Program-made: the position numbers and the translations under genes | Notes under the pieces: generated by a model | Databases searched by the model: none | What the model was told of the DNA's origin: nothing | What the model saw: the letters and a program-made list of their open reading frames with translations, nothing else | Shown here: positions 1-18,806 of the stretch, piece by piece | How positions within the stretch are numbered: position 1 is the first letter of the stretch | How the letters are laid out: each line of letters opens with the position of its first letter | Source of the DNA: a virus | Strand: one strand, 5' to 3' | Length of the DNA: 64,000 nucleotides | Virus record (IMG/VR): IMGVR_UViG_3300043775_002552 | Location: 1-64,000 of that record

Positions 1-163
1 CAGGTCTAAATGAACGTATCGGATATGTAGTTAGCCTTGAAACATCTTCAAGAGTATCTGCTGATGCTTCATTGTCTACATACATCGGAAGTGTAGACAC
101 AGGTCTAAATGAACGTATCGGATATGAAGTTAGCCTTGAAACATCTTCAAGAGTATCTGCTGA
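1..163 (+). repeat. 99-bp-period near-identical tandem duplication in fibre gene
   Basis: Positions 1-64 and 100-163 are identical except for one base (T at 28, A at 127, giving Val versus Glu). The period of 99 bp equals 33 codons, so the reading frame is kept. The high identity suggests a recent duplication or ongoing repeat-number variation. The array may extend left of the window. Confidence 0.85.
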
Positions 164-1361
164 CTTGTCATTGACAAACGCTTTAGATTCTGAATCATCT
201 ATGAGAGTTGAAGGAGACCAATCTCTACAAAACCAAATTGACTTCATTACTTCAAACGTTGATCCAGCTGCTTTAGATTCATTAACTGAAATCGTTAGTG
301 CATTCCAAACTGCCGATGGAGACATCAACAACGCTATCACTACATTGGCTGACGCAGCAGCGGCTTCATTGTCTGCTGAGGTTGTACGTGCTGAAAGTGC
401 TGAAGCATCTTTAGCTTCTGATTTGTCATCTGAAGCATCTGCAAGAATTGCAGACGTTGATGCTGAAGAATCACGTGCTATTGAAGCTGAAGGTTCAATA
501 GTGGATAGAGTTTCTGCAGACCTTAAAGGTGAAATTAATGCTAGACATAGTGCAGATTATTCATTAGAACAATTAATTTCTTCTGAAGTATCTCGTGCTG
601 AAGAAGCTGAAGCTTCATTGGCTACAGAATTGTCTTACGAAGTTTCTTACTTGATATCTAACACAGACTTGACAGCAATCGATTCATTCGCTGAGGTATC
701 TGATGCTGTTGTTGCTGGTAACGAATCATTGTCAACTGAAATATCTTCACAAGTTGAGTCACTTACATCTGTTGACACTTCATTGGAAGCTCAATTGTCT
801 TCTGACATTGATAGTTTAGCTGATGTTGATAACGCAACAATTAGCCTTGATACAGCAACAAACACTATCAAGTTGAAACAAGAGATCGCTGCTCCTGATT
901 CAGGAATGTATACATTCAACAGTAATGTTGAAGTTAGTGATACATTAACTGTTGGTGGTGTTGACGTGATGGCTGAGATTTCTTCTGAAATTTCTGCAAG
1001 AATCGCTGGTGATGAGTCATTGGAAGTTGCATTGTCAACTGAAGTATCTTACTTGTTAGCTAACACAGACCTTACAGCAATCGATTCATTCGCTGAAGTA
1101 TCTAATGAGCTTTCAGTTCAAACTGAAAACTTTGAAACTATTTACTACAGGAAAGCTTCTTTCAGTGGTGATATTGATGGAATAAATTCATCATATACGT
1201 TGTCTGAGGCTGTTAGATTTAGATCTGAGAATGTTTACTTGAATGGTCTATTGCAAGAAGAAAATGTAGATTACACTATTACTGGACCTAATGGTGACAT
1301 AGTTACATTTACTTCTGCTCCTGAAACAGGTGACAAAGTAGTGATCTACGGAGTATATTAA
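1..1361 (+). CDS. Tail fibre-like coiled-coil repeat protein, 5' truncated by window edge
   Basis: The reading frame is open from the first full codon at position 3 and continues without a stop to TAA at 1359-1361, so the gene starts left of the window; the TTG at 72 is only an internal codon. The protein is built of short Ala/Ser/Glu-rich heptad-like units (LSSEASARIADVDAEESRA and similar), which predict a long trimeric coiled coil as in phage fibres. Interspersed are two copies of a NTDLTAIDSFAEVS module and one DPAALDSLTEIV module. The C-terminus (about the last 70 residues) is a compact domain of the pattern ENVYLNGLLQ...DYTI...FTSAPETGDKVVIYGVY. The same modules and C-terminal domain recur in the gene at 9186-11129, so the two are paralogues. 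Receptor-binding fibre or whisker is inferred from architecture; the exact role is unknown. Confidence 0.7.
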   Translation, partial: GLNERIGYVVSLETSSRVSADASLSTYIGSVDTGLNERIGYEVSLETSSRVSADLSLTNALDSESSMRVEGDQSLQNQIDFITSNVDPAALDSLTEIVSAFQTADGDINNAITTLADAAAASLSAEVVRAESAEASLASDLSSEASARIADVDAEESRAIEAEGSIVDRVSADLKGEINARHSADYSLEQLISSEVSRAEEAEASLATELSYEVSYLISNTDLTAIDSFAEVSDAVVAGNESLSTEISSQVESLTSVDTSLEAQLSSDIDSLADVDNATISLDTATNTIKLKQEIAAPDSGMYTFNSNVEVSDTLTVGGVDVMAEISSEISARIAGDESLEVALSTEVSYLLANTDLTAIDSFAEVSNELSVQTENFETIYYRKASFSGDIDGINSSYTLSEAVRFRSENVYLNGLLQEENVDYTITGPNGDIVTFTSAPETGDKVVIYGVY

Positions 1362-1501: not shown

Positions 1502-4500
1502 ATGGCAACATTTATAACATCCAAAGCAGTTGGAGAAACAATGATCATCAATGTTCAAACATCAACAACATATTGGAAATATAACCACAACGGAACAGAT
1601 TCAAGTGTATTCTCTGATGGAAATCAAACAATCACAGTAGCAAACGCAAATGGTGAATTTACACTTATTCCATGTTTAGCAGATGGAACTCCAAGTGGAG
1701 ATATAACTTCTTTAGGTTTATCTGGCGATAAAGAATCATCAAACCAAATCACATCATTTGATGGAACAGGTTTAACGAGTTTAACTGGTTTACATTTAAT
1801 GAACAGCCAATTAACATCATTTGATGGTACAGGTTTAACAAGTTTAACTTATTTAAATTTACGAAATAACCAATTAACTTCATTTGATGGTACAGGTTTA
1901 ACAAGTTTACATACTTTAGGTTTAGGTAATAACCAACTAACTTCATTTGACGGAACAGATTTAACATCATTACAACAGTTATCATTAGCCAACAACCTTT
2001 TAACATCACTTGATGTTTCTCCAATGTCTTTGTTGAAAAACCTACATTTGGCGGATCCTTATGGTTTACAAGGTAACCCAATGACAGCGGCAGCCAATGA
2101 CACTATCATGTCCCAATTTGTCACAAATGGATTAACAAACGGTACTTTTTCAACAGACAATGGTAGAACATCTGATGGAACAGCAGACTATAATACATTG
2201 ATTGCTGAAGGTTGGAACTTAGTTGGACTTGAATTGGTTGAAGAAACGACCACAACAACAACTGAAGCTCCGACAACAACTACAACAACAACTGTAGCAC
2301 CATCAAACCCAACATTTATAACGTCCAAAGCAGTTGGACAATCCTTACCAGGGACCTATGCTGTAACCACTTCAGGATATTGGAAAGCCTACCATAATGG
2401 GACATACTCAAGTATTCACCCTAGTGGACAAAAAAGAAATCTTCCAATCACTAACGCTAACGGGGAATTTACACTTGTAGCTTGTGATGTTAATGGGGAT
2501 ATAACAGGAAATATTACAGCAATTGCTTCAAGACTAAACCAAATTATTTCATTTGACGGAACTGGTTTAACTTCATTAACTTCTTTAGATTTAATGAATA
2601 ACCAATTAACATCATTTGATGGGGCAGGTTTAACAAGTTTAAATATTTTAAAATTAAATGGTAACCCACTTACATCATTCATTGGTGGAGATATGGGATT
2701 AATTACTCAATTGAATTTCCCAAGTTGGGGAATTACAACCCTAACTTCATTTGATGGAACAGGTTTAACAAGTTTAACTACTTTAAGTTTAGGAAATAAC
2801 CAATTAACTTCATTTGACGGAACTGATTTATCTAGTTTAACTACTTTAGAATTAACTAATAACCAATTAACCTCATTTGATCCAACAGGTTTAGATGTTC
2901 TTCAATATTTGTATGTTAATGGTAACCTATTAACCCCAACAATCAACAATTCACTACTAGCAAAACTAGCAGCAAACGAATTAGCAAATACATGGGGGTA
3001 TGGTGAATTTTACACAACAGGAGGAAGAACATCTGCTGGTACAACAGACTATGATTATTTGATAGCAAATGGATGGTTCTTGGTTGGTCTTGAATTGGTT
3101 GAAGAAACGACCACAACAACAACAACAACTGCAGCACCATCAAACCCAACATTTATTACATCTTATAATATATTCGGAGAACCTATATTTCAAATCCAAA
3201 CCTCAACAGGATATTGGAAATTTACAGAAAATGGAACACCTGGAACAATTGGCGGAAACGCATCTGGGGGACCTACACCACCAATGGCAGGTGTATTCAT
3301 TGCAAATGGAACAACTACTCAATTTATTGAACTTCAAATTGCTAATTCTGAAATTGAATTATTTTCATGTGATGAATTTGGTAACACATCAGGAAATATT
3401 CAAACATTAACTTTATCAAGTTGCAATATCACTTCATTTTCTGGAACTGGTTTAACAAGTTTAACTGGTTTGTATTTAGGTGATAACCAATTAACTTCAT
3501 TTGATGGAACAGGTTTAACAAGTTTAACTGAGTTAAATTTAGGTAATAACCAATTAACATCATTTGATGGAACTGATTTAACAAGTTTAACTTTTTTAAA
3601 TTTAAATGATAACCAATTAACATCATTTGATGGAACTGGTTTAACAAGTTTAACTGAATTATATTTACAAAATAACCAATTAACTTCATTTGATGGGACA
3701 GGACTATCTGGTTTAACTGAGTTGTATTTAGGGAGTAACCAATTAACATCATTTGACGGAACTGGTTTATCTGGTTTAACTTATTTGTATTTAGATTCCA
3801 ATCAATTAACTTCATTTGATGGGACAGGATTATCTAATTTAAGTGCATTAGTTTTAAATGACAACCCTCTAACCGCTTTTGATGGAACAGGATTATCTAG
3901 CTTAACTAATTTACAACTTATAGGTGGTAAGGACGGAGTATCTGTTTTAACCTCTGTTACTAATCTACCAACTAGTTTAACTACTTTAGAATTGTCTTCT
4001 AACCAACTAAGTACGTTTGATGGATCAGATTTAATAAATTTAACTAGTTTGTATTTAGGAGGCAACCAATTAACATCATTTGACGGAACTGATTTAACAA
4101 GTTTAACTATGTTAAATTTAGGTTATAACCAATTAACTTCATTAAGTGGATTTATTTTTCCAACAAGTTTAACTCAATTGAATTTATATAATAACCAATT
4201 AACTTCATTTGATGGTACAGGTTTAACAAGTTTAAATTATTTATATTTACAAAACAACCAAATTACTTCATTTGATGGAACAGGTTTAACAAGTTTAACC
4301 CAATTAATATTAGTAAACAACCTTTTAACATCAATTGATGTTTCTCCAATGGTTGCTTTAACTAGTCTATTTTTAGCTGATGTATACGGACTCAATGGTA
4401 ACCCAATGACAGCAACTGCTAACAATACTATTTTAGCGGCATTAGTTGCTAAGGGTGTTTCTGGTGGTAACTTTGCAACGTCTGGTGGTAGAACATCCGC

Positions 4501-5920
4501 TGGAACAGCAAACTATGATACATTGAATGCTGATGGATGGAAATTATATGGTCTTGATCTAACAACACCACCACCATCAGGAAATGGTAAATTAAGAATC
4601 AAAGGTGTTAATAGTGGTGGAGGAACGACAACCACAACAACTGTACCAACGTTTAATTTAACATTTGAAAACGGATTATCTGATCAATTGGTTGTATTAA
4701 GTTATTTCACATTAGATAATGGTGGTGGTCATCATTTTAAACCTAGAAGAGGTCCTGGTGGTCATTTTGGACCATCAATCACCGAATACGGATCAATGGT
4801 AACAGACGAAAATGGACAAGTTGTATTTAACGGTTTACCAAATGATGGATCTAACTGGAAAATAGATGTTTATAACACATCACTTCAAGACGGAACGGTA
4901 GTTTATACTACTGTGTTAGCATTAGAACCTTATGGACCTCAATTACATGAGGATACAACACTCACTAGAAATTTCTATAATGTTGATTTCTTAAATCAAG
5001 ATGATAGTGGTATCCTAAGTGGTAAAGATGTTGATATTTATTATATTCCAAAATCATTATTAACTATGGATGTCGATATATTCCCAATTCTAATGTTTAG
5101 TGGAACTACAGACGTTAATGGTACAATTAATACGTCTTTAAGTGATGGTTCTTATATTATCAGAACTTATGAAGATAATGGTGACCTATCTTGGGGTCAA
5201 CGTTTTTATGTTGAAGGTGGTACCGTTTCAATTTATAGACCATTATCTACAGATGTTGAAATTGTTGTTAACAACTTAGCAACAACGATTTGGAATAATA
5301 TGGTTCCAACAAATAACTCACCTGTAGAAGGTATAGATATTTATTATTATGATAATAGTTTTGAAGTTTATTCTTTTGACCCATCACAACCAATTGGAAA
5401 TAATAGTTTCCAATTTGGAAATAATAATTCCCAAGTCATCCCACCTTTAACACTTCTAGGTCAAACTGACTCAAATGGACAATTATCAACAAACGGAACA
5501 CCTGTATCAATTGAATCGGGTTATATCGGTGTTGTTTGGGGATCAACTGATTCAGAAGGTAGACTATATGGTACCGGTAGAACAGAATCATTAATTAATG
5601 ATTTAGGTGTTAATGGTAACGGGGTTAAAACAATTACACTAGATACCGATATTAACATTCGATGGGCCGAATGGCGTCCAGTAATCAACTTAAGTGGTAA
5701 AAGTGTGATATTGTCAAGATTTAATGGAAGTGAATGGGTACCTTTTGACTCATATACATCCATCGCTGATAACACCAATACTTCCTTTGGTTATTTAACT
5801 GGTGGTGTTGAGTATAAACTTGAAGTTTATAACACACAAACAACTGGTGATATAGGTTACAGTGAAACTTGGACTCCGACTTGGGGTGAAAGTAAAACAA
5901 CCAATGTTACTTTAAGTTAA
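1502..5920 (+). CDS. Giant leucine-rich-repeat adhesin-like protein with Thr-rich linkers
   Basis: This 1472-aa protein has three similar modules. Each starts with a short FITS...YWK...G domain and continues into tandem 21-residue leucine-rich repeats of the type LTSFDGTGLTSLTELNLGNNQ. I count roughly 5, 6 and 15 units in modules 1, 2 and 3. The modules are joined by Thr-rich linkers near residues 247-267 and 534-545 (TTTTTTEAP, TTTTTTTVAP); a third Thr/Gly linker near 1040 leads to a C-terminal part of beta-rich, Gly/Asn/Asp-rich repeats (about 1045-1472) resembling Ig-like or CNA-B/carboxypeptidase-regulatory folds. LRRs are binding scaffolds. Position between two fibre paralogues suggests a surface-exposed receptor-binding or decoration protein, which is inference. 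The ATG at 1502 follows an A-rich leader with no Shine-Dalgarno. No signal peptide or membrane anchor is visible, so secretion by the host is not indicated. Confidence 0.75.
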   Translation: MATFITSKAVGETMIINVQTSTTYWKYNHNGTDSSVFSDGNQTITVANANGEFTLIPCLADGTPSGDITSLGLSGDKESSNQITSFDGTGLTSLTGLHLMNSQLTSFDGTGLTSLTYLNLRNNQLTSFDGTGLTSLHTLGLGNNQLTSFDGTDLTSLQQLSLANNLLTSLDVSPMSLLKNLHLADPYGLQGNPMTAAANDTIMSQFVTNGLTNGTFSTDNGRTSDGTADYNTLIAEGWNLVGLELVEETTTTTTEAPTTTTTTTVAPSNPTFITSKAVGQSLPGTYAVTTSGYWKAYHNGTYSSIHPSGQKRNLPITNANGEFTLVACDVNGDITGNITAIASRLNQIISFDGTGLTSLTSLDLMNNQLTSFDGAGLTSLNILKLNGNPLTSFIGGDMGLITQLNFPSWGITTLTSFDGTGLTSLTTLSLGNNQLTSFDGTDLSSLTTLELTNNQLTSFDPTGLDVLQYLYVNGNLLTPTINNSLLAKLAANELANTWGYGEFYTTGGRTSAGTTDYDYLIANGWFLVGLELVEETTTTTTTTAAPSNPTFITSYNIFGEPIFQIQTSTGYWKFTENGTPGTIGGNASGGPTPPMAGVFIANGTTTQFIELQIANSEIELFSCDEFGNTSGNIQTLTLSSCNITSFSGTGLTSLTGLYLGDNQLTSFDGTGLTSLTELNLGNNQLTSFDGTDLTSLTFLNLNDNQLTSFDGTGLTSLTELYLQNNQLTSFDGTGLSGLTELYLGSNQLTSFDGTGLSGLTYLYLDSNQLTSFDGTGLSNLSALVLNDNPLTAFDGTGLSSLTNLQLIGGKDGVSVLTSVTNLPTSLTTLELSSNQLSTFDGSDLINLTSLYLGGNQLTSFDGTDLTSLTMLNLGYNQLTSLSGFIFPTSLTQLNLYNNQLTSFDGTGLTSLNYLYLQNNQITSFDGTGLTSLTQLILVNNLLTSIDVSPMVALTSLFLADVYGLNGNPMTATANNTILAALVAKGVSGGNFATSGGRTSAGTANYDTLNADGWKLYGLDLTTPPPSGNGKLRIKGVNSGGGTTTTTTVPTFNLTFENGLSDQLVVLSYFTLDNGGGHHFKPRRGPGGHFGPSITEYGSMVTDENGQVVFNGLPNDGSNWKIDVYNTSLQDGTVVYTTVLALEPYGPQLHEDTTLTRNFYNVDFLNQDDSGILSGKDVDIYYIPKSLLTMDVDIFPILMFSGTTDVNGTINTSLSDGSYIIRTYEDNGDLSWGQRFYVEGGTVSIYRPLSTDVEIVVNNLATTIWNNMVPTNNSPVEGIDIYYYDNSFEVYSFDPSQPIGNNSFQFGNNNSQVIPPLTLLGQTDSNGQLSTNGTPVSIESGYIGVVWGSTDSEGRLYGTGRTESLINDLGVNGNGVKTITLDTDINIRWAEWRPVINLSGKSVILSRFNGSEWVPFDSYTSIADNTNTSFGYLTGGVEYKLEVYNTQTTGDIGYSETWTPTWGESKTTNVTLS
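1747..4390 (+). repeat. 63-bp LRR-coding repeat arrays
   Basis: Degenerate 63-bp units (21 codons) occur in three blocks (about 1750-2040, 2540-2930 and 3425-4350), with a recurring core of AACCAATTAACTTCATTTGA. Many units are nearly identical at the DNA level, so unequal recombination between them is likely. Confidence 0.85.
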
Positions 5921-5923
5921 TTA

Positions 5924-5964
5924 AAGATAAAGGGAGGATGAAATACTCCTCCCAATATCTAAAA
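5924..5964 (+). repeat. 41-nt stem-loop element, copy 2
   Basis: Perfect copy of the element at 1379-1419, again directly after the stop codon of a large surface-protein gene and 10 nt before the next ATG. See the finding on this repeat. Confidence 0.7.
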
Positions 5965-5974
5965 CAAAAAACTG

Positions 5975-6589
5975 ATGGAAATTAAAGTCTTAAATCTTAA
6001 AACAGAAAAAAGAAGAAGAGAGTATATGGAGTCCCAATTATCAGGGACTCCACACTCCTTCTTTTATGCTTTATCTCCAAATGATATAGATGAAAAATTA
6101 TTTGAAAATAAACCTCATCTATTATCAAAAGAAGCGGTAGCAACATTTGAATCACATAGAAAAATAATTGGATCTTGTGGTGATGAACCTATGTTAGTAT
6201 TAGAAGATGATTCTACCCCATTTAAACCTGATTTTATGGAAAAAATAGAAGAACTTTTAAAAACAGAACATAAATGGGACATTATGATACTTGGATACTT
6301 CCCCGATTATAGAAAACTTGAAAGAAAAGACATATGTGATAAATTTGATAAACTATATAAGTTTATTGGAATGCATGCTTATATCATAAACCCATTAAGT
6401 GTTGATAAAATATTATCTCAACTCGGAGAACCAAATGTACACGTTGATTACAGAATCTCCGAACTAATTGAAGAAGATAAAATCATTGGTATATTCTCTA
6501 AAATAAACATTTTTAGACAAAACAACTGGGACTTTAAAACCCAAATACCTAAAGCAAGAGACATTATAAAGAATGAGGAAAATAAATAA
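5975..6589 (+). CDS. Glycosyltransferase family 25-type (LPS-type) glycosyltransferase
   Basis: 204 aa. The N-terminus VLNLKTEKRRREYM matches the GT25 start, where a strand is followed by basic residues. It is followed by SHRKIIGSCGDEPMLVLEDD, the family pattern of S/H-x-x-hhh and an acidic E-D-D (about residues 70-90), and by GMHAYIINPLSVDKIL further on. GT25 enzymes transfer galactose or related sugars in LPS or to collagen-like proteins. The gene follows the LRR gene and overlaps the next gene by 17 nt, so it is probably co-transcribed with the sulfotransferases. It likely modifies a phage or host surface glycan; the substrate is not deducible. Confidence 0.8.
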   Translation: MEIKVLNLKTEKRRREYMESQLSGTPHSFFYALSPNDIDEKLFENKPHLLSKEAVATFESHRKIIGSCGDEPMLVLEDDSTPFKPDFMEKIEELLKTEHKWDIMILGYFPDYRKLERKDICDKFDKLYKFIGMHAYIINPLSVDKILSQLGEPNVHVDYRISELIEEDKIIGIFSKINIFRQNNWDFKTQIPKARDIIKNEENK

Positions 6590-7139
6590 AATATTTCAAA
6601 TAGGGTTTAACAAGTGTGGAACCGTATCCCTTTACCATTTTTTTGAAGATAACGGGTTAAAACCAATTCATTGGGATATGGGTATGTTAGCAACCACAAT
6701 TAAATATAACCATAATAACAATCTACCTCTTTTAAAAGGATATGAAAAATATGATGTTTTTACAGACATGGAAAATGTCCATCAAAACCTATATATCCAC
6801 CTTACACACTATAAAGAACTAGACAAACAATATCCAAACTCCAAATTTATTTTAAATCTAAGACCTATAGACAATTGGATCAAATCCAGAGTAAACCACC
6901 CAAATTATCTTAATGTATTTAAACAAATGACAGGATTTGATGAGGAAGGTGTTATAAACTTATGGAAAAAACAATGGTACGACCATATAGAATCGGTTAC
7001 AGACCATTTTAAAGATAGAGCAAATGATTTATTGGTCTTTGACATTGAAACAGAACAACATAAATTAGTTGAGTTTATTTCTCAATATATTGAATTAAAA
7101 TCAACAGACTACGGTCATCATAACAAAACTGAAAAATAA
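6573..7139 (+). CDS. Sulfotransferase family protein
   Basis: 188 aa. Residues 9-20 (QIGFNKCGTVSL) match the 5'-phosphosulfate-binding loop of PAPS-dependent sulfotransferases (G-x-x-K-C/S-G-T-x-S/T-L). RPIDNWIKSR near residue 96 matches the 3'-phosphate-binding RxxxxWxxS-type motif. It is shorter than many family members but both cofactor motifs are present. It overlaps the GT25 gene by 17 nt and the next sulfotransferase by 1 nt (TAATG), indicating translational coupling. Expected reaction: transfer of sulfate from PAPS to a carbohydrate hydroxyl, target unknown. Confidence 0.75.
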   Translation: MRKINKIFQIGFNKCGTVSLYHFFEDNGLKPIHWDMGMLATTIKYNHNNNLPLLKGYEKYDVFTDMENVHQNLYIHLTHYKELDKQYPNSKFILNLRPIDNWIKSRVNHPNYLNVFKQMTGFDEEGVINLWKKQWYDHIESVTDHFKDRANDLLVFDIETEQHKLVEFISQYIELKSTDYGHHNKTEK

Positions 7140-7792
7140 TGTTAGTATCTCATAAACACAAATTTATTTATATTAAAAGTATAAAGACTGCCGGAACAAG
7201 TACTGAAATATTTCTAGAACCTTACTGTGTGACCAATGTATTGGAGAGTCATGGAAGAGAAATGATTCAAACCAATGAAGGTATAATCGGAACTAGAATG
7301 AACCAACATCTAGCCGAAATTTCAGAATTCTATAACCATATGCCCCCATATAAAATAAAAAATAGCATAGGTGAAGAAACATTTAACTCTTATACTAAAA
7401 TAATCAACATCAGAAACCCATTTGATATGATGGTTAGTCATTACTATTTCAAACCAACATTTGATTTATATAGTAATAGTGAAATGTCTTTTGAAGATTA
7501 TTTGTTAAAAACAAATGTCGTTGAGGATCTATCCAAAAAATATAGAGACTTAATGTATATAGAAGATGAGTTTATAGTTGATGAAATTGTAAGATTTGAA
7601 AATTTAGAGGAAGATATTTTTAAACTATTAGACAAATTAGAGTTACCTTCCCCTAAAAGGGAATTGGGTGAGTATAAGAAAAATAAAAGAAGACCTGATA
7701 AAGATTGGAAGAAAATGTATTCAAACGAAACAAAAGAATTAGTTGAAAAACATTTTAAATTTTATATGGATCTATTTAACTATTCATTTTAA
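7139..7792 (+). CDS. Sulfotransferase (Sulfotransfer_2-like)
   Basis: 217 aa. HKHKFIYIKSIKTAGTSTEI (residues 5-24) carries the K-T-A-G-T-S phosphosulfate loop typical of carbohydrate sulfotransferases. INIRNPFDMMVSHYY near residue 90 is the 3'-phosphate motif (RNPxxRxxS-type). It starts at the TAATG overlap with the preceding sulfotransferase and ends in an overlapping TAATG with the DUF2061 gene. Two adjacent, clearly divergent sulfotransferases suggest two different acceptor positions rather than a simple duplication; that reading is inference. Confidence 0.8.
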   Translation: MLVSHKHKFIYIKSIKTAGTSTEIFLEPYCVTNVLESHGREMIQTNEGIIGTRMNQHLAEISEFYNHMPPYKIKNSIGEETFNSYTKIINIRNPFDMMVSHYYFKPTFDLYSNSEMSFEDYLLKTNVVEDLSKKYRDLMYIEDEFIVDEIVRFENLEEDIFKLLDKLELPSPKRELGEYKKNKRRPDKDWKKMYSNETKELVEKHFKFYMDLFNYSF

Positions 7793-7998
7793 TGAAAAAT
7801 AAAAAAGAATATACCTTTTTGAAATATACCTTAAAAACAATAAGTTATAGAGTAATGGGTACATTAATCACCTTCTTAACTGCAATGTCATTAAATATCC
7901 CATTTAAAATATCGGCAGTGTTAAGTTTAGGTGAATTGGTTATAAAACCTATATTTTATTTTTTACATGAGATGTTTTGGGATAAAAAATCATTTTGA
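7792..7998 (+). CDS. DUF2061 small membrane protein
   Basis: 68 aa. The pattern KYTLKTISYRVMGTLITF...GELVIKPIFYFLHEMFW matches DUF2061 (start with K-x-x-S/T-x-R, two hydrophobic segments, G-E-x-x-x-K, then Y/F-x-H-E-x-x-W). Two transmembrane helices are likely (about residues 18-36 and 38-58). DUF2061 genes are often found near sulfate-activation (cys) genes in bacteria as far as I recall, which would fit the two sulfotransferases just upstream. The gene starts at a 1-nt overlap with the upstream stop. Its last 43 nt overlap the 3' end of the convergent glycosyltransferase gene. Confidence 0.75.
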   Translation: MKNKKEYTFLKYTLKTISYRVMGTLITFLTAMSLNIPFKISAVLSLGELVIKPIFYFLHEMFWDKKSF

Positions 7999-8975
7999 AT
8001 AAAATCTTTCATTATATCAATGTACTTTATAGTACAACTATTACTATCAATATAATCAAAATGATTTGGGTTCTCCTTTAATTTTTCAATTGGATTTACA
8101 TTGATGTATTCACCCTTATAGAACTTTGTTTTTTTCAAATTATCTGTAACACCAGCCATATGTAAAATAGGTGTTTGTTCATATCTAGATATTGTATCTG
8201 TTGCCCAAGAAAATTCAAGTTCCTTAACCACCTTTGTTTCAATACCAAACTTCCATATGTTCCATAACATTGACCACATCTCAGCAGTCCAAAATTGAAT
8301 TTGTCCTGGATTGATCGGAAAACGTTTTTGATAGTCATTCATTTGGTCATACAACGGTGTACAATCAAGATATATTTTATCCCACAATTCAAAGTTAGTA
8401 TTTTTTAAAAGATATTGTCCACCACCAGAATTTGGTTGATTCTCTTTAACAACATCTATATCAATTTCAACCACATCACACATCTCTTGTAGTAGTTGTA
8501 ATTTTTCAGATGACGGATACTGTCTTTCATATCTATCACAACAATCTTTAATATAGTTATATCCAATATAACCAATGGTATCTGATAGATATGAAATCTC
8601 ATCTTTTAATAAAGAATCAAAATCAGGTAATTCTCTAAAGATGATATCCGCATCGTGTAAAAATATTAACTTACCTAATTTAGGATAATCTTTTATCCAC
8701 CTTGAAACAAGGTATGGTTTTATACTTGGGATGTATGATTTTTTATTTCTATTATCTTTATAGAAATGAATATTACACCCAAGATTATCTAATCGTTTTG
8801 AACCTTCTGTCCTTTCTTTAGACCCGTTTGGTAAAGAAAAAATAACGTGAATCTGTTTTGGGTCTATCCCTAGAGATTTAAAATTATGAACATATAGTTC
8901 CACTTGCCAATGAAAGTAGGGAACATCGGGTTGAGCGGTTACATAAATAATATCTTCCTTATTATAGGTTTTCAT
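7956..8975 (-). CDS. DxD glycosyltransferase-like protein
   Basis: About 339 aa from the ATG at 8975 (MKTYNKEDIIYVTAQPDVPY); an upstream in-frame codon at 8999 could add 8 residues but lies before the TATTTATA motif (8980-8987), so 8975 is preferred. FLHDADIIF near residue 110 is a GT-A-type D-x-D sugar-nucleotide/metal motif. YFHWQVELYVHNF near the start and FWTAEMWSMLW later recall the hydroxyproline/serine glycosyltransferase (HPAT/SERGT) group, but I am not sure of that family. It is transcribed opposite to the cassette and overlaps DUF2061 tail-to-tail. The role would be glycosylation of a fibre or of host surface. Confidence 0.6.
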   Translation of the reverse strand: MKTYNKEDIIYVTAQPDVPYFHWQVELYVHNFKSLGIDPKQIHVIFSLPNGSKERTEGSKRLDNLGCNIHFYKDNRNKKSYIPSIKPYLVSRWIKDYPKLGKLIFLHDADIIFRELPDFDSLLKDEISYLSDTIGYIGYNYIKDCCDRYERQYPSSEKLQLLQEMCDVVEIDIDVVKENQPNSGGGQYLLKNTNFELWDKIYLDCTPLYDQMNDYQKRFPINPGQIQFWTAEMWSMLWNIWKFGIETKVVKELEFSWATDTISRYEQTPILHMAGVTDNLKKTKFYKGEYINVNPIEKLKENPNHFDYIDSNSCTIKYIDIMKDFIQNDFLSQNISCKK

Positions 8976-8979
8976 ATTA

Positions 8980-8987
8980 TATAAATA
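8980..8987 (-). promoter_or_regulatory. TATTTATA motif, 4 nt before ATG
   Basis: On the minus strand the order is TATTTATA, TAAT, then the ATG at 8975. It matches the recurring motif described in the findings. A second copy on the same strand lies at 9039-9046. The rest of the 8976-9185 intergenic stretch is AT-rich, with a small hairpin ATGGTA/TACCAT near 9143-9161. Confidence 0.45.
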
Positions 8988-9096
8988 TTTAAATATCACA
9001 AACTACTAATTTATTAATGTAAATTACTAATTACTACCTATAAATATAGTTATGTGTTTGTTTTAAATTGTATTTATGTTTAGTTAGCTAACAAAA

Positions 9097-9104
9097 TATT
9101 TATA
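9097..9104 (+). promoter_or_regulatory. TATTTATA motif, candidate late promoter of fibre gene
   Basis: TATTTATA preceded by A and followed by T, 81 nt upstream of the ATG at 9186. The spacing is longer than at most other sites, giving a leader that contains the ATGGTA/TACCAT hairpin. Confidence 0.4.
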
Positions 9105-9185
9105 TCCTTATTAAAATTTATCGGTAAAGGGGTTTCTCCTAAATGGTATAAAGTTTACCATTAAACTTGCTAAAAAAAAATAAAA

Positions 9186-11129
9186 ATGGCAGAAACTAAA
9201 ATCGTCTTAAATAGACAGTCCGATTTAATATTGGACAACGCACAAATCACAGCACCTGTTGGTATCGTAGTTGCAGATATTGATGGTTTACAATCCGTTG
9301 TAACCTCAATTGATACAAACGTATCTGAACTATTATCAACTGAATTATCTAATCGTGTTGCTGGTGATGACTCTCTAGCTGCTGGACTTTCTACAGAAGT
9401 AGCTAACCGTGAATCAGATGTTAATGCTGAGGAATCAAGAGCTATCGTAGCAGAAACTTCATTACAAAACAACATTGAAGCTGAAGCTTCTTTAAGAGTT
9501 GTTGGTGATGAAAGTTTAGAAAACGCAATGATGGCGGCAGATAGTTCATTAGCTACTGACTTATCTTCTGAAACTGCTAGAGCAGAATCAGCTGAGGCTT
9601 CATTGAACACTAAAGTTGATTTCGTAATCTCTAACACAGATCCTGCGGCTATTGACTCATTAACTGAGATCGTTGGTGCTTTCCAATCAGCTGATGGTGA
9701 CCTAAATGGTGCTATTACATCTTTGGCTACTGCGGCAACATTGGCGGTTAATAACGAAGCATCTATCCGTTTGGCGGCTGATGACGTATTAACTTCTGAC
9801 TTGTCAACTGAGGTTGCCAATCGTGAAGCTGCGGTATCTTTGGAGGAAGCTGCTCGTATCTCAGGTGATATGTCAGTTAATGCTGATTTGTCTACAGAAG
9901 TAGCAAACAGAGAAGCAGCAGTATCTACTGAAGCATCTGCTCGTGTTGCTGGTGACTCTTCATTGGAAACTAAAATTACAACAGACTTATCATTAGCTAA
10001 TTCATCTATTGATTCTGCTTTAAGTACTGAGACATCTAACAGAATTGCTGATGTTGATGCTGAGGAATCAAGAGCTATGTCTGTGGAGGCAGTATTGACT
10101 TCTGATTTATCTTCTGAGGTTGTTAACAGAACATCTGCAGTCTCTACTGAAGCGTCTTTACGTGGTGTTGCAATTGACAACGAAGCGTCAATTCGTTTGG
10201 TCGCTGATGATTCAATCGCTGCAGGTCTTTCTTCTGAACTTGTGGCTCGTGAATCTGCAGTATCTGCTGAAGCATCTTCAAGAGTATTAGGTGACTCATC
10301 TTTAGCTTCAGGACTTTCTTCTGAAGTGTCTAGAGCGGAATCTGCTGAGGGTTCATTGGCAACAACCATTGCTAATGTAATCTCTAACGCTGACCCAGCT
10401 GCTCTTGATTCACTTGTTGAAATTGTTAATGCATTCCAAAGTGCTGACGGTGACTTAAATGGTGCTATCACTTCATTGGCAACTGATTTATCTTCTGATA
10501 TTTCTACTGAAGTTGATGCTAGAATGTCAGCAGATTTTTCGTTAGAATCTAATTTAACAAATTATATTTCTAATGAATATTATGGTCCTATGCAAACATT
10601 GTACAGAGAGATATCTGACCGTGTATATATGGATCAGTCATTGGCTACGGATTTATCTACTGAAATTTCAAGAGCACAAGAGGCTGAAACATCATTAGAA
10701 ACAGCGTTGTCAACTGAAGTATCTTACTTAATTGCTAACACAGACCTTACGGCAATTGATTCATTTGCTGAAGTATCTGCGACAATAGAACACACATACC
10801 ACCAAGTATTACCTTTATGGTATGATGAGGCAAACCCATTACCTATAAGTCTAAATTACGGAGTTAATTTCAACCAAATAGATGGGTCTAATCCGGTATT
10901 TGTTACACAAACACCAATTAAAGTTGGTTCAGAAAACATCTATTTAAATGGTATGCTTTTGACTAGAGGTAAGGATTATAATACCGCATATATGCCTCAC
11001 CAGATGTCTATTATTGACAATCAGTTAAATGGTGTTAATACTTTTGCGTTTAGGTTTTTGTTCACCTCCCCACAACCAGGTGATACAATCACAATTTATG
11101 GTGTTTATGATAATAGAATGTTGCCTTAA
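9186..11129 (+). CDS. Tail fibre-like coiled-coil repeat protein, complete
   Basis: 647 aa. The N-terminus (AETKIVLNRQSDLILDNAQI) differs from the repeats and probably attaches to the virion. Residues about 40-500 are coiled-coil units rich in S-T-E-V-A-N-R and A-E-E-S-R-A. Embedded are two DPAA(I/L)DSL(T/V)EIV modules (near residues 155 and 400) and one NTDLTAIDSFAEVS module (near 523). The C-terminal domain (SENIYLNGMLL...YGVY) is homologous to that of the fibre at the left edge. The paired fibres bracket the glycan-modifying cassette. The function as fibre/whisker is inferred from repeat architecture. The large antisense frame over it is a mirror of the repeats. Confidence 0.7.
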   Translation: MAETKIVLNRQSDLILDNAQITAPVGIVVADIDGLQSVVTSIDTNVSELLSTELSNRVAGDDSLAAGLSTEVANRESDVNAEESRAIVAETSLQNNIEAEASLRVVGDESLENAMMAADSSLATDLSSETARAESAEASLNTKVDFVISNTDPAAIDSLTEIVGAFQSADGDLNGAITSLATAATLAVNNEASIRLAADDVLTSDLSTEVANREAAVSLEEAARISGDMSVNADLSTEVANREAAVSTEASARVAGDSSLETKITTDLSLANSSIDSALSTETSNRIADVDAEESRAMSVEAVLTSDLSSEVVNRTSAVSTEASLRGVAIDNEASIRLVADDSIAAGLSSELVARESAVSAEASSRVLGDSSLASGLSSEVSRAESAEGSLATTIANVISNADPAALDSLVEIVNAFQSADGDLNGAITSLATDLSSDISTEVDARMSADFSLESNLTNYISNEYYGPMQTLYREISDRVYMDQSLATDLSTEISRAQEAETSLETALSTEVSYLIANTDLTAIDSFAEVSATIEHTYHQVLPLWYDEANPLPISLNYGVNFNQIDGSNPVFVTQTPIKVGSENIYLNGMLLTRGKDYNTAYMPHQMSIIDNQLNGVNTFAFRFLFTSPQPGDTITIYGVYDNRMLP

Positions 11130-11202: not shown

Positions 11203-12435
11203 TTATATTTTATTATAAAGGTTTGTCTTTGGATTGTATTTTAACCCCTTATTTCCACCATTAAATAAGTTCTCAATCAATTTATCATAAGTACGAACAA
11301 TATCCATATTATCAGCGTGATAACGTTGTAGAACCTTATCATTTCTTTCATCATATGATTCAATATTCTTGTCGTGTTCTTTTAGGATATAATCAAGTTG
11401 TTTTGCCCCAGCAATGGTATCAGACCCTTCATAGTAATATCCAAGATCTTTACACATTGGTGCGTTATGTAAAACAGGATAACCTAAGAATACCGCATCC
11501 AAATATAAATAATTTAATGGGTTCAAAATCTGATGACAAATCAAGACATCCAAATGTTGGGTTAACATATATGCGGTTTGATATCTACTTTCAGCAGATA
11601 TTTTACCGTCCTTATATAAGTCAAATGTGGCAATCATTGCCAAAAATTCCTTATGTGATTTAACTTTTTCAGAGTTTGTAATACGTAGTTTATCAATATG
11701 TTCCTTACCAATTTCACCACGATAACATTCTTCAGCAATCATAGTTGGAATCAAACTAAACTTAACGATATTCAAGTTAGGTTCCATAATACCCAAGATT
11801 TTTTTATCTTTTCCAATCTCGTATTGCCAAGACTTTTTATAAGTCCCACGTTTAAATCCTTTTTCAATATCGGTTACACTTTCAAGTAAAAACTTATGGT
11901 GCCAAATGAAAGGAACGATAAGGGCGTTTGTACGATATAAAGTATGGTAATACCCACGATTAACCTCATCTTGTTGGGGTATGTACCATATCTCATCATA
12001 CTGTTCATCAAACTGATATGACTTAGTGGGATTCTCACCAAAAAGAATATTTTCCATTGCGATTACATAGTTATTACCACATTTATAAGCAATAATCTTT
12101 TTATGTTCACCTGATTTTTTAAATGAATCAATTTGGTGATTATGAATTTGAGCACCCATAACAACTAACATATCCATTTCCAAATACTTATCTTCAAAAT
12201 AACTAACATCAATATCATTTAGATAAGATGGTTTAGTTGAGAAATCGGCCTTTAATGTATTCAATAAATGAATTTCATAATTCTTTTCGGAATTTTTTAA
12301 CATATGAATCATCATTAAAACGTTTTGTTTGATTCCATTTGTCCATATTGATTCTTTGTTATCCTTTAAACCTAAAGTGATTCCGATTTTAATTTTTTCG
12401 GTGTTAAACCCTTTTTTTGTTGTTTTTTTAGCCAT
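11203..12435 (-). CDS. DUF2827 glycosyltransferase-like protein
   Basis: 410 aa from the ATG at 12435 (MAKKTTKKGFN); an upstream TTG would add seven residues but the ATG gives the usual small overlap (8 nt) with the upstream J-domain gene. KIKIGITLGLKDNKESIWTN close to the N-terminus, followed by GIKQNV, is the characteristic start of DUF2827. Further on, HQILNPLNYLYLDAVFLGYP and the acidic H-N-A-P segment resemble the donor-binding half of GT-B glycosyltransferases. DUF2827 proteins usually sit in surface-polysaccharide loci. With the genes at 5975-8975 this adds a probable third glycosyltransferase to the region; substrate unknown. Confidence 0.7.
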   Translation of the reverse strand: MAKKTTKKGFNTEKIKIGITLGLKDNKESIWTNGIKQNVLMMIHMLKNSEKNYEIHLLNTLKADFSTKPSYLNDIDVSYFEDKYLEMDMLVVMGAQIHNHQIDSFKKSGEHKKIIAYKCGNNYVIAMENILFGENPTKSYQFDEQYDEIWYIPQQDEVNRGYYHTLYRTNALIVPFIWHHKFLLESVTDIEKGFKRGTYKKSWQYEIGKDKKILGIMEPNLNIVKFSLIPTMIAEECYRGEIGKEHIDKLRITNSEKVKSHKEFLAMIATFDLYKDGKISAESRYQTAYMLTQHLDVLICHQILNPLNYLYLDAVFLGYPVLHNAPMCKDLGYYYEGSDTIAGAKQLDYILKEHDKNIESYDERNDKVLQRYHADNMDIVRTYDKLIENLFNGGNKGLKYNPKTNLYNKI

Positions 12436-13003
12436 GTTTTTTAACAAATAATTCAATTAATTTATTTTTTTCTTCTTCAGTTTTTGCCATGTAGTATAAC
12501 CATATAAAAGAAGCCTCAATACTTTTTAATTCATTTTTTTTCATTTCAATTAAAGCAATTAAAGTTCCCTTATCTTCAAAATCAATTTCAAAATCAATTG
12601 ATAATTGATCACATATTATAAATAGTTCCATAAGATTATATTCATCCGCAGCAATTGTAGCATTCATATAAAGATTTATTAACTCTTCAGAATTTGTCTT
12701 ATCAGGGTGTGTTTTTTTAACTATTTCCCTATATAATTTTTTTACTTTATCTTTAACTGATTTATCTACCGAGTCAGGTTCAATTTTTGGTTTTTTTGGT
12801 AGATTAACTTCTTCTTCCTTTTTTTCCGTTTTTGGTTCAGGATCGTTGTTAATACCAAGTTCGGATCTTAATTTTTGTGTTTTTTCTAAAAATTCAGGTC
12901 TATTCTCTGAGATAACTTCTTTTTTAAATTCATCATCTAATAGTAAAAAATTATACTCCTGTATTAACTTTTTAATTTCTAATCTTTTAAGTTTATCCTC
13001 CAT
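12428..13003 (-). CDS. J-domain (DnaJ-like) protein
   Basis: 191 aa from the ATG at 13003; the longer start at 13006 is a TTG and would put the start inside the 4-nt spacer of the promoter motif. The C-terminal half contains KVKKLYREIVKKTHPDKT, with the HPD tripeptide at residues 99-101 preceded by the basic helix II, as in J domains that stimulate DnaK/Hsp70. The N-terminal half is Lys/Glu-rich and probably disordered. Here the J domain is C-terminal with no zinc-finger or substrate domain. It may recruit host DnaK to virion assembly or to phage proteins. The N-terminus contains KKLIQE, also seen in the phage SOD. Confidence 0.75.
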   Translation of the reverse strand: MEDKLKRLEIKKLIQEYNFLLLDDEFKKEVISENRPEFLEKTQKLRSELGINNDPEPKTEKKEEEVNLPKKPKIEPDSVDKSVKDKVKKLYREIVKKTHPDKTNSEELINLYMNATIAADEYNLMELFIICDQLSIDFEIDFEDKGTLIALIEMKKNELKSIEASFIWLYYMAKTEEEKNKLIELFVKKHG

Positions 13004-16903: not shown

Positions 16904-18021
16904 ATAGGTGTGAAAGGACTATTAAATGGTCTAAACCTCAACAGTTTATTTAGATTTTCTGCTTGTAGTCCTTTCATTTCCATTAACTTATCAGGTCTCA
17001 ACCTTTCAAGACGCAATTTTAATTCTTCCCAAAGAATTGCCTTTTCGTCTTTTGCTTCAGTAAATAATGATTGGTAATCCATAGTTAATTCAGAATCTGG
17101 TGTTTTTAAATTACCACTATACTTTCCTCTAACTCTACCAAGAGCCTCTTTACAATATGCCACAAACCATCTTCTGACCCAAGTTTGTGCAGGGCTATTT
17201 AATTCGTCCCACCTCATCTCATCAATTGGAACATCAGAAGGTAATCTAACTATATCAGGGTTTTGTGCCAAACAAGTATCACGGTCATCGGTTTCATAAT
17301 ACCAATACCAAACCCTATACTGATGGAATTTAATCATACCAAAGTCAAATCTACCACCAGGAACATTCATTAAATGTACTGCTTTTTTTCCTTCAGGAAG
17401 TGCGGTTACTCTATACGTAAGATCTCCCGTTATGATTCTTCTTTTAATATTGATGTCTTGCATTCTTAAAAGAATGTCAAATGCTGGTGTGATAAAATAG
17501 TTTCCTGTTGTTCCCATTTGTGAAAAACCGGCACCACCACCAAGACCAATACCACCAAATCCACCAAATCCACCCATAAACGGATCAAAGTACGCAGCAT
17601 CTAATTCAGGACGAGAAAACCATAAAAGTTCATTTATTTCTCTTCCTGCAGGTATTTCATATATTTGTTGTCCGGGAACCAAATCAATATAATCCTTTTT
17701 TAAAACAGAATCTCCACCTGCCTGCAGCCCCACAATTTTAGAATAAGCATATGTGTATTGGGTTTCCCAATCCATACTTCTTGTGGTAAATGCCCTTGTT
17801 AATGATTGTTCGTCCAAGTTCAATCCATTAAGGGACACCCATTGTGATTCTATTAACCAATCTTGTACGTATTGTGCATAATCTCCAATTGATAACTCAA
17901 GCATAGAGTCCATCATTTCATCCTCAAGTTCAACCGAACGAAGTGGTGCACCCAAAAGGTGTTTTACTCTTTTATAGAGTTTTGATCTTTCAGGTTCTGT
18001 AATTATTGATGTTGTTGGCAT
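16900..18021 (-). CDS. Neck/head-completion protein (T4 gp13-like, tentative)
   Basis: 373 aa. The N-terminal helices (LLGAPLRSVELEDEMMDSML) and the C-terminal segment AQTWVRRWFVAYCKEALGRV, followed by an acidic/basic helical tail, match the pattern of T4-like neck or connector proteins as I know them. A Gly-rich low-complexity stretch (FGGFGGIGLGGGAG, near residues 148-165) and aromatic-rich strands (YRVWYWYYE) lie in the middle. It sits on the minus strand, apart from the gp14/gp15-like pair at 20.6-22.2 kb. Alternative: another head-tail adaptor. Role assignment is by pattern only. Confidence 0.5.
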   Translation of the reverse strand: MPTTSIITEPERSKLYKRVKHLLGAPLRSVELEDEMMDSMLELSIGDYAQYVQDWLIESQWVSLNGLNLDEQSLTRAFTTRSMDWETQYTYAYSKIVGLQAGGDSVLKKDYIDLVPGQQIYEIPAGREINELLWFSRPELDAAYFDPFMGGFGGFGGIGLGGGAGFSQMGTTGNYFITPAFDILLRMQDINIKRRIITGDLTYRVTALPEGKKAVHLMNVPGGRFDFGMIKFHQYRVWYWYYETDDRDTCLAQNPDIVRLPSDVPIDEMRWDELNSPAQTWVRRWFVAYCKEALGRVRGKYSGNLKTPDSELTMDYQSLFTEAKDEKAILWEELKLRLERLRPDKLMEMKGLQAENLNKLLRFRPFNSPFTPI

Positions 18022-18033
18022 AAGATTTTTCTA

Positions 18034-18041
18034 TATAAATA
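18034..18041 (-). promoter_or_regulatory. TATTTATA motif upstream of neck gene
   Basis: TATTTATA on the minus strand, 12 nt before the ATG at 18021, followed by an A-rich leader without Shine-Dalgarno. Confidence 0.5.
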
Positions 18042-18061
18042 TCTTTTGATATGTAAATAGT

Positions 18062-18781
18062 TTAGTTTGTCTTCTTTTTTGTTTGTCCCTCCAAACATTC
18101 ATTAACAAATTCCCAATTTACAACCTTCCAAAAGTTATTCACATACTTGTCTCTTTCATTCTTATATTTTAAATAATAGGCATGTTCCCATAAATCTAAC
18201 CCTAAAAGAGGAAACCCACCATTTGTTTCTGTATCCATAAGGGGGTTATCTTGGTTGGGGGTTGTCATAATTTTTAGTCTGCCGTTTTTTGTTAAAACAA
18301 GCCATACCCAACCAGATCCAAAATTACTTTTTGCGGATTCTTCAAACTTTTCTTTAAATTTATCAAATGAACCAAAAGATGACTCAATTTTTTTAAGTAT
18401 TGACCCTGAAATTGTTTGTTTTTTAGGTGAAAGCATTCTCCAAAAAAGAGCGTGATTAAACGCACCCCCACCATTATTTTTTACCTTTTTATTATATTTT
18501 GAAATTCTTTTTATAATATCTTCAAGTTCAACATCGTCCCCTTTTATCTTTTCAAGTTCCTTATTTAACTTTTCAACATACCCTTTATAGTGTTTTGAAT
18601 AGTGGGTTTTCATTGTTTCTGAATCAACAAATCTTTCAAGTGAATCATAACTATATGGAAGTTTTTCAACACTAATTGATTTTATTTCAGAAATAATTGA
18701 TTTGTTAGAAATTAAATTGACCCCAATAGATTCTTGGATTAATTCAATTTTTTTTAAAAGTGGATCATAAACGGATTTCAT
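18062..18781 (-). CDS. Fe/Mn superoxide dismutase, Mn-type signature, with N-terminal extension
   Basis: 239 aa; dismutates superoxide to oxygen and peroxide. The core starts at LPYSYDSLE (residue 41). All four metal ligands are visible: H60 (THYSKHY), the His of NNGGGAFNHALFW, and the Asp and His of LLGLDLWEHAYY; the second-shell Tyr is Y68. GGG before the second ligand and PNQDNP follow the Mn-type rather than Fe-type signature, so Mn or cambialistic use is likely. The first ~38 residues are an extra helical stretch absent from standard enzymes and contain LIQESIG, similar to LIKESLG in the tiny ORF at 25736. It is unusual in a phage. It sits between neck and helicase genes, has its own TATTTATA motif and may be a virion or late protein. 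Confidence 0.93.
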   Translation of the reverse strand: MKSVYDPLLKKIELIQESIGVNLISNKSIISEIKSISVEKLPYSYDSLERFVDSETMKTHYSKHYKGYVEKLNKELEKIKGDDVELEDIIKRISKYNKKVKNNGGGAFNHALFWRMLSPKKQTISGSILKKIESSFGSFDKFKEKFEESAKSNFGSGWVWLVLTKNGRLKIMTTPNQDNPLMDTETNGGFPLLGLDLWEHAYYLKYKNERDKYVNNFWKVVNWEFVNECLEGQTKKKTN

Positions 18782-18785
18782 AATA

Positions 18786-18793
18786 TATAAATA
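18786..18793 (-). promoter_or_regulatory. TATTTATA motif, 4 nt before ATG of SOD
   Basis: On the minus strand TATTTATA, TATT, ATG (18781). Same geometry as at 8980, 13008, 20632, 22357 and 51637. Confidence 0.45.
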
Positions 18794-18806
18794 TATGAAA
18801 AGTTGA

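Follow-up and report, generated by a model that had tools for sequence, protein, structure and literature searches.

In this study, we analyzed positions 1 to 64,000 of the virus record IMGVR_UViG_3300043775_002552 from IMG/VR (68,603 bp in total); this 64-kb stretch is called the window. The subject is a candidate glycan-sulfation cassette at 5975–8975, in which genes for a GT25-family glycosyltransferase, two sulfotransferases and a DUF2061 protein follow a leucine-rich repeat (LRR) gene and lie between two fibre genes. The window encodes a T4-type tail sheath, whose closest matches are found in a 484-kb uncultured phage (LR756508.1), which also carries a homologue of the second sulfotransferase, and in a Microcystis phage; a near-DNA search of the phage collection gave no match. 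All viral records used here are possibly fragments. Open reading frames (ORFs), strands and overlaps were re-derived, and the following features were obtained:

5975–6589, plus strand: GT25-family glycosyltransferase, 204 aa (PF01755, E 5.4e-12; LEDD motif at aa 76–79; 69–75% conserved in the related contigs L001 and L004)
6573–7139, plus strand: sulfotransferase 1, ST4 (Sulfotransfer_4 type), 188 aa (PF17784, E 5.9e-12)
7139–7792, plus strand: sulfotransferase 2, ST2 (Sulfotransfer_2 type), 217 aa (PF03567, E 1.7e-5, above the cut-off)
7792–7998, plus strand: small hydrophobic DUF2061 protein, 68 aa (PF09834, E 2.4e-10), linked to sulfate activation by its gene neighbourhoods
7956–8975, minus strand: predicted GT-A-like glycosyltransferase of phrog_4417, 339 aa, with HDADI at aa 107 (PHROG E 4.2e-71 over 314 residues)
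1502–5920, plus strand: LRR virion-type protein, the proposed acceptor (PF12799/PF13855)
72–1361, plus strand: fibre paralogue 1 (34% identical to the protein of 9186–11129 over 467 aa, E 2e-46)
9186–11129, plus strand: fibre paralogue 2; in L001 and L004, its homologues precede the LRR gene
11203–12456, minus strand: DUF2827 protein, probably a GT-B glycosyltransferase as judged from its sequence only (PF10933, E 1.5e-98)
5932–5953, no strand assigned: GC-rich hairpin with a stem of 7 bp, located after the LRR stop codon and before the start codon of GT25, seen in the sequence

The initial annotation had described exactly these genes with overlaps of 17, 1 and 1 nt, surrounded by the LRR protein and two paralogous fibres and with DUF2827 just beyond, and coordinates and family profiles agree with it throughout. 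ST4 begins at 6573, within GT25, whose last position is 6589; ST4 and ST2 share a single nucleotide at 7139, the A of TAATG, and ST2 and DUF2061 likewise at 7792. All four co-directional genes exceed the curated Pfam cut-offs. The phrog_4417 ORF starts with ATG at 8975 on the minus strand, its end overlaps the convergent DUF2061 gene by 43 nt, and its protein has no Pfam match. Rfam gave no match within 5500–9300. The hairpin at 5932–5953 has a perfect 7-bp stem and, in a terminator scan, was reported for the minus strand alone.

Both sulfotransferases carry the motifs for binding of the sulfate donor 3′-phosphoadenosine-5′-phosphosulfate (PAPS). In ST4, these are the PAPS loop GFNKCGT (aa 11–17) and the 3′-phosphate motif R97..W102..S105, and the 5′-phosphosulfate loop and the 3′-phosphate Arg/Ser motif are conserved across 18 viral homologues. 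An AlphaFold2 model of ST4 (predicted local distance difference test, pLDDT, 93) had sulfotransferases as top Foldseek matches (best E 7e-7), and all 19 Protein Data Bank (PDB) matches at E ≤ 0.001 were sulfotransferases, with template modeling (TM) scores of 0.55–0.66. By motifs and modeled fold, ST4 is thus a predicted PAPS-dependent sulfotransferase. Adenylate kinases matched with weaker E-values only, due to the shared P-loop fold, and were not used for functional assignment. ST2 has the PAPS loop IKTAGTS (aa 15–21) and RNPFD at aa 92, its PAPS-binding motifs are kept in the alignment of homologues, and its counterpart in L004 matches Sulfotransfer_2 with E 4e-7. Assignment of ST2 to the galactose-3-O-sulfotransferases of phrog_3347 was rejected, the full-length match (E 0.008) being too weak for membership. 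The GT25 protein covers positions 4–197 of 199 of PF01755, including the acidic LEDD motif. Since the fold matches of ST4 include small-molecule sulfotransferases (stronger) and tyrosylprotein sulfotransferases (weaker), the sulfate might be transferred to protein tyrosine or to a small molecule instead of a glycan; we regard this as improbable, as glycosyltransferases always accompany the sulfotransferases, GT25 here and GT8/GT9 in the phage contig G164.

A search of IMG/VR with ST2 yielded the contigs L001–L003, which form one lineage (86% identity), L004 (79%; genome G141) and two distant viruses. The order GT25-ST4-ST2 directly after an LRR gene is present in L001–L004, i.e. in two lineages besides that of the window, so that the conservation of this core in related phages, which the initial annotation had proposed to check, could be established. 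All four contigs have the order fibre, LRR, GT25, ST4, ST2, a variable part, DUF2827 on the minus strand and a protein with a DnaJ-like match, which is weak in the window copy. The 17-nt overlap of GT25 and ST4 is kept in the relatives; the distance from the LRR stop to the GT25 start is 5–7 nt in L001 and L004 versus 54 nt including the hairpin in the window. For the cassette enzymes compared with their relatives, nonsynonymous divergence (dN) is about 0.09–0.21 and synonymous divergence (dS) 0.9–2.1, giving dN/dS of about 0.06–0.19; with dS far above dN, the enzymes are under purifying selection. The same gene order in four contigs, the kept overlap and the low dN/dS argue that the cassette is not a chance assembly. 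DUF2827, which adjoins the cassette also in L001 and L004, exceeds all other proteins of the locus in conservation (92% identical in L001); its C-terminal part resembles GT-B glycosyltransferases. A third sulfotransferase (Sulfotransfer_3) lies between two fibre genes in L002 (17157–17975), while in L001 it continues in frame into the next fibre (17157–19952); the two contigs diverge at 17901, by a real deletion or an assembly artefact. PF13469 had no match in the window's own record.

Glycosyltransferase- and sulfotransferase-based nucleotide modification has been reported in phages, according to PMC10829341 citing Iyer et al. 2013, and the enzymes could act on modified DNA bases. The location of the cassette in a tail locus speaks against such DNA hypermodification, as does the absence of PF00303 (thymidylate synthase/dCMP hydroxymethylase family) from the window record and three relatives, these records being possibly fragments. 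Furthermore, the QueC and PTPS genes of the relative G140 point to 7-deazaguanine chemistry. We therefore consider DNA as substrate very improbable. In G140, QueC, PTPS and a QueE-like gene for 7-deazaguanine synthesis lie at L256:13020–15486.

The DUF2061 protein was connected with sulfate activation by its neighbourhoods in bacteria and phages. Among 40 genomes carrying ST2 relatives, DUF2061 was present in eight Bacteroidota (assigned by record titles) and four Gammaproteobacteria, and in seven of the eight Bacteroidota its gene is directly beside cysC or genes with a PAPS-reductase domain (cysH/cysD kind). Sampling 99 genomes evenly within this phylum added seven genomes with DUF2061, located before cysH-cysD-cysN-like genes in four of them (Pfam-checked in L129 and L147, the others by eye). 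Altogether, DUF2061 adjoins cysC, cysD or cysH in 11/15 Bacteroidota genomes. DUF2061 also occurs in 8 of 41 viral contigs (window, G141, G169, G164, G174, G171, G147 and G146), and a sulfotransferase and/or a kinase of adenosine-5′-phosphosulfate (APS) is encoded within a few genes in six of seven phage lineages. In G141 (L004), an APS-kinase-like gene (PF01583, E 4.5e-22) is inserted between ST2 and DUF2061; its product has the P-loop, DGDxxR and an SPY-type motif (APY in phage copies). G169 has the order ST2, APS kinase (full length, PF01583 E 4e-68), DUF2061; G174 has ST3 followed at some distance by APS kinase, a HIGH-motif nucleotidyltransferase and DUF2061, and G171 has a DUF2061 score near-identical to that of G174, from which the gene order is known. 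G147 carries APS kinase, nucleotidyltransferase and DUF2061, with ST4 elsewhere in the record. In G164 (L268:3314–6902), a different cassette, GT8-GT9-GT9-ST3-DUF2061, is followed by fibre-type genes resembling those of L004. Near DUF2061 of G146 there is only one sulfotransferase-like protein, which lacks Pfam support. As G164, G169, G171 and G174 were sampled via phrog_4417 and not via sulfotransferases, the link of DUF2061 to sulfation in these contigs is no selection effect. By these neighbourhoods, DUF2061 is a sulfate-activation neighbour and predicted to be functionally part of the sulfation cassette. A strictly sulfation-specific role would be too strong a claim, given the non-cys neighbourhoods.

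The gene of the small HIGH-motif nucleotidyltransferase either separates APS kinase from DUF2061 or lies close to sulfotransferase genes (L145:1977–2375, L271:2544–2942, L005:12629–13048), and its product shows weak, sub-threshold matches to ATP sulfurylase in two of three cases. It might supply APS as a minimal ATP sulfurylase.

The opposite-strand glycosyltransferase turned out differently. One IMG/VR scan gave 208 confirmed phrog_4417 relatives, of which 80 (63–71% identical) were kept. None of these 80 loci has GT25, ST4, ST2, DUF2061 or DUF2827 in its flanks; in the seven loci inspected, virion-type genes on the same strand flank phrog_4417. The HDAD motif is invariant in 18 sequences, and the structural model (pLDDT 83) has UGGT, glycogenin and β-1,3-N-acetylglucosaminyl (GlcNAc) transferases as top PDB matches (E from 2e-6, TM about 0.4), by which the protein is predicted to have a GT-A-like fold with DxD motif. 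Runs of at least five Thr are encoded in 75/80 phrog_4417 loci, which are related to each other, versus 0/17 other viral and 0/80 bacterial loci, controls that are unmatched for virion genes. Among isolated phages, whose phrog_4417 gene is in many carriers beside a major head or tail gene, 13/14 carriers have runs of 6–16 Thr versus 0/7 controls (Fisher p 7e-5, the phages not being independent). The runs are mostly C-terminal in head or tail proteins. The seven controls were phages of the same host genera, picked blind to the outcome, with the lack of phrog_4417 judged among the matches listed and from annotation. In the window, the LRR protein has four poly-Thr runs of 6–8 Thr (2246–2263, 2273–2293, 3107–3130 and 4625–4642). 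The records of L001, L002 and L004 are devoid of phrog_4417, the LRR proteins of L001 and L004 have no poly-Thr tract, and none was found in the 100 kb read of G140; G141 has three short tracts.

From this co-occurrence and the tract-free relatives, we predict that phrog_4417 is probably a virion poly-Thr O-glycosyltransferase and forms a module separate from the sulfation set. A single unit with the sulfation genes was rejected because of the relatives G139–G141 without phrog_4417 and the 80 loci without GT25, ST4 and ST2, while poly-Thr linkers as acceptor of the sulfation set are a weakened candidate, since L001 and L004 keep GT25-ST4-ST2 next to tract-free LRR proteins. Of the cassette as initially annotated, the glycosyltransferase and sulfotransferase genes in the tail-fibre locus are real and conserved and DUF2061 is included by predicted function; the DxD glycosyltransferase has to be removed, since four relatives lack it at the locus and its family is linked to poly-Thr.

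Starting from what the sequences show, namely which genes are present, their motifs and conservation, their position beside the LRR gene and the fibres, and the link of DUF2061 to PAPS-synthesis genes, we infer activity, reaction order, substrates, acceptor, timing, host and benefit of the cassette as follows. With a probability of roughly 0.6, it would be an exchangeable, PAPS-dependent module for sulfating glycans, used late and linked to the fibre genes of a T4-like phage with a probable Bacteroidota host, the latter suggested by a phrog_4417 homologue of a Chryseobacterium phage and the DUF2061/APS-kinase neighbourhoods. On the LRR protein or the fibres, GT25 would prime or extend a glycan, to which ST4 and ST2 would add sulfate taken from PAPS. 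DUF2061 may be an accessory membrane protein aiding sulfate activation, to which sister phages would add their own APS-kinase-like enzyme, and phrog_4417 would independently glycosylate Thr tracts. The particles would thereby carry a glycan that is sulfated and negatively charged and that influences adsorption, shielding or interaction with polysaccharides.

The acceptor is most likely a neighbouring virion surface protein, the LRR protein or the fibres; due to the linkage of the cassette to the LRR gene, we lean to virion proteins as likelier than the host surface. Alternatively, lipopolysaccharide (LPS) or capsule of the host could be glycosylated and sulfated during infection, blocking superinfection or freeing trapped virions. 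Pfam describes GT25 as classically an LPS glycosyltransferase family, and the relatives encode DegT/PglD/GT clusters of the surface-polysaccharide kind, for which reason this explanation is kept, although as an unlikely one: the place right after the LRR gene in the fibre locus in three lineages better fits virion modification, and no flippase or similar signature of O-antigen conversion was seen beside the cassette. In both sister phages, the clusters comprise DegT, PglD, GT and methyltransferase genes (L255:4814–9713 and L261:6638–12707).

Several observations weigh against a virion glycan-sulfation module. The DegT/PglD/GT clusters of G140 and G141 lie away from the fibre locus and could serve a host-surface glycan. 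The APS-kinase-like protein of L004 fails the NCBI apsK equivalog (78.6 versus a cut-off of 138.7 bits) and is without the segment around KGLYxKARxGEIKxxTG of bacterial APS kinases; given this missing segment, it may have another substrate. No APS kinase is encoded in the window record, a 68.6-kb fragment, and neither DUF2061 nor APS kinase in the L001–L003 lineage as far as sequenced. Also, DUF2061 is beside cys genes in none of the four Gammaproteobacteria and away from them in 4/15 Bacteroidota genomes.

The statement of the initial annotation that sulfotransferases are unusual in phage tail-fibre loci requires a distinction. They are not rare in viral contigs: one IMG/VR scan gave 37 ST4 loci (with an alignment as query, a single-sequence query giving no match), and PHROGs includes a galactose-3-O-sulfotransferase family. 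They are nearly absent from isolated phages, with no tblastn match for ST4 and one for ST2 in isolated-phage records, and where loci were read they are mostly outside fibre loci; among the matches listed, cassette relatives aside, the neighbours of ST4 are DNA-metabolism or sugar genes. For GT25 and DUF2827, tblastn likewise gave no match in isolated-phage records. Searches of open-access literature turned up no account of sulfation cassettes linked to fibre genes, of a sulfation role for DUF2061 or of poly-Thr glycosylation in phages, and fibre-linked sulfation cassettes thus appear to be undescribed so far.

If our proposal is true, some phages may decorate their own particles, or the host, with sulfated sugars, and phages would determine the charge and the chemistry of their surface themselves. 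An uncharacterised family gains a testable role from the link of DUF2061 to sulfate activation, and the phrog_4417/poly-Thr rule allows glycosylated virion proteins of cultured lactic-acid, enterococcal and staphylococcal phages to be predicted without any data beyond the sequence. Tentatively, freshwater T4-like phages could possess exchangeable gene sets that produce sulfated virion glycans, in some cases together with a PAPS supply encoded by the phage (APS kinase, DUF2061, HIGH-motif nucleotidyltransferase), here combined with the very widespread phrog_4417 that would O-glycosylate poly-Thr tails of head, tail and fibre proteins.

Virion glycosylation is known in few phage systems, and we know of no report of sulfated virion glycans, nor of sulfation or sulfate-activation genes in the virion glycosylation of mycobacteriophages. 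Compared with PAPS-dependent sulfotransferases of the families Sulfotransfer_4, _2 and _3, the PAPS loops, the 3′-phosphate motif and the fold are alike, whereas the genes described here are viral and located in a tail-fibre locus. In cys operons of Bacteroidota, DUF2061 is found by cysC, cysD or cysH, while in phages sulfotransferase and fibre genes take the place of the reductive pathway as its partners. Mycobacteriophages glycosylate their virions at the C-termini of capsid and tail tube proteins (Freeman et al. 2023, as cited in PMC12619734). The poly-Thr tails of the phrog_4417 phages closely resemble this arrangement, whereas for the sulfation set LRR and fibre proteins are the candidate acceptors.

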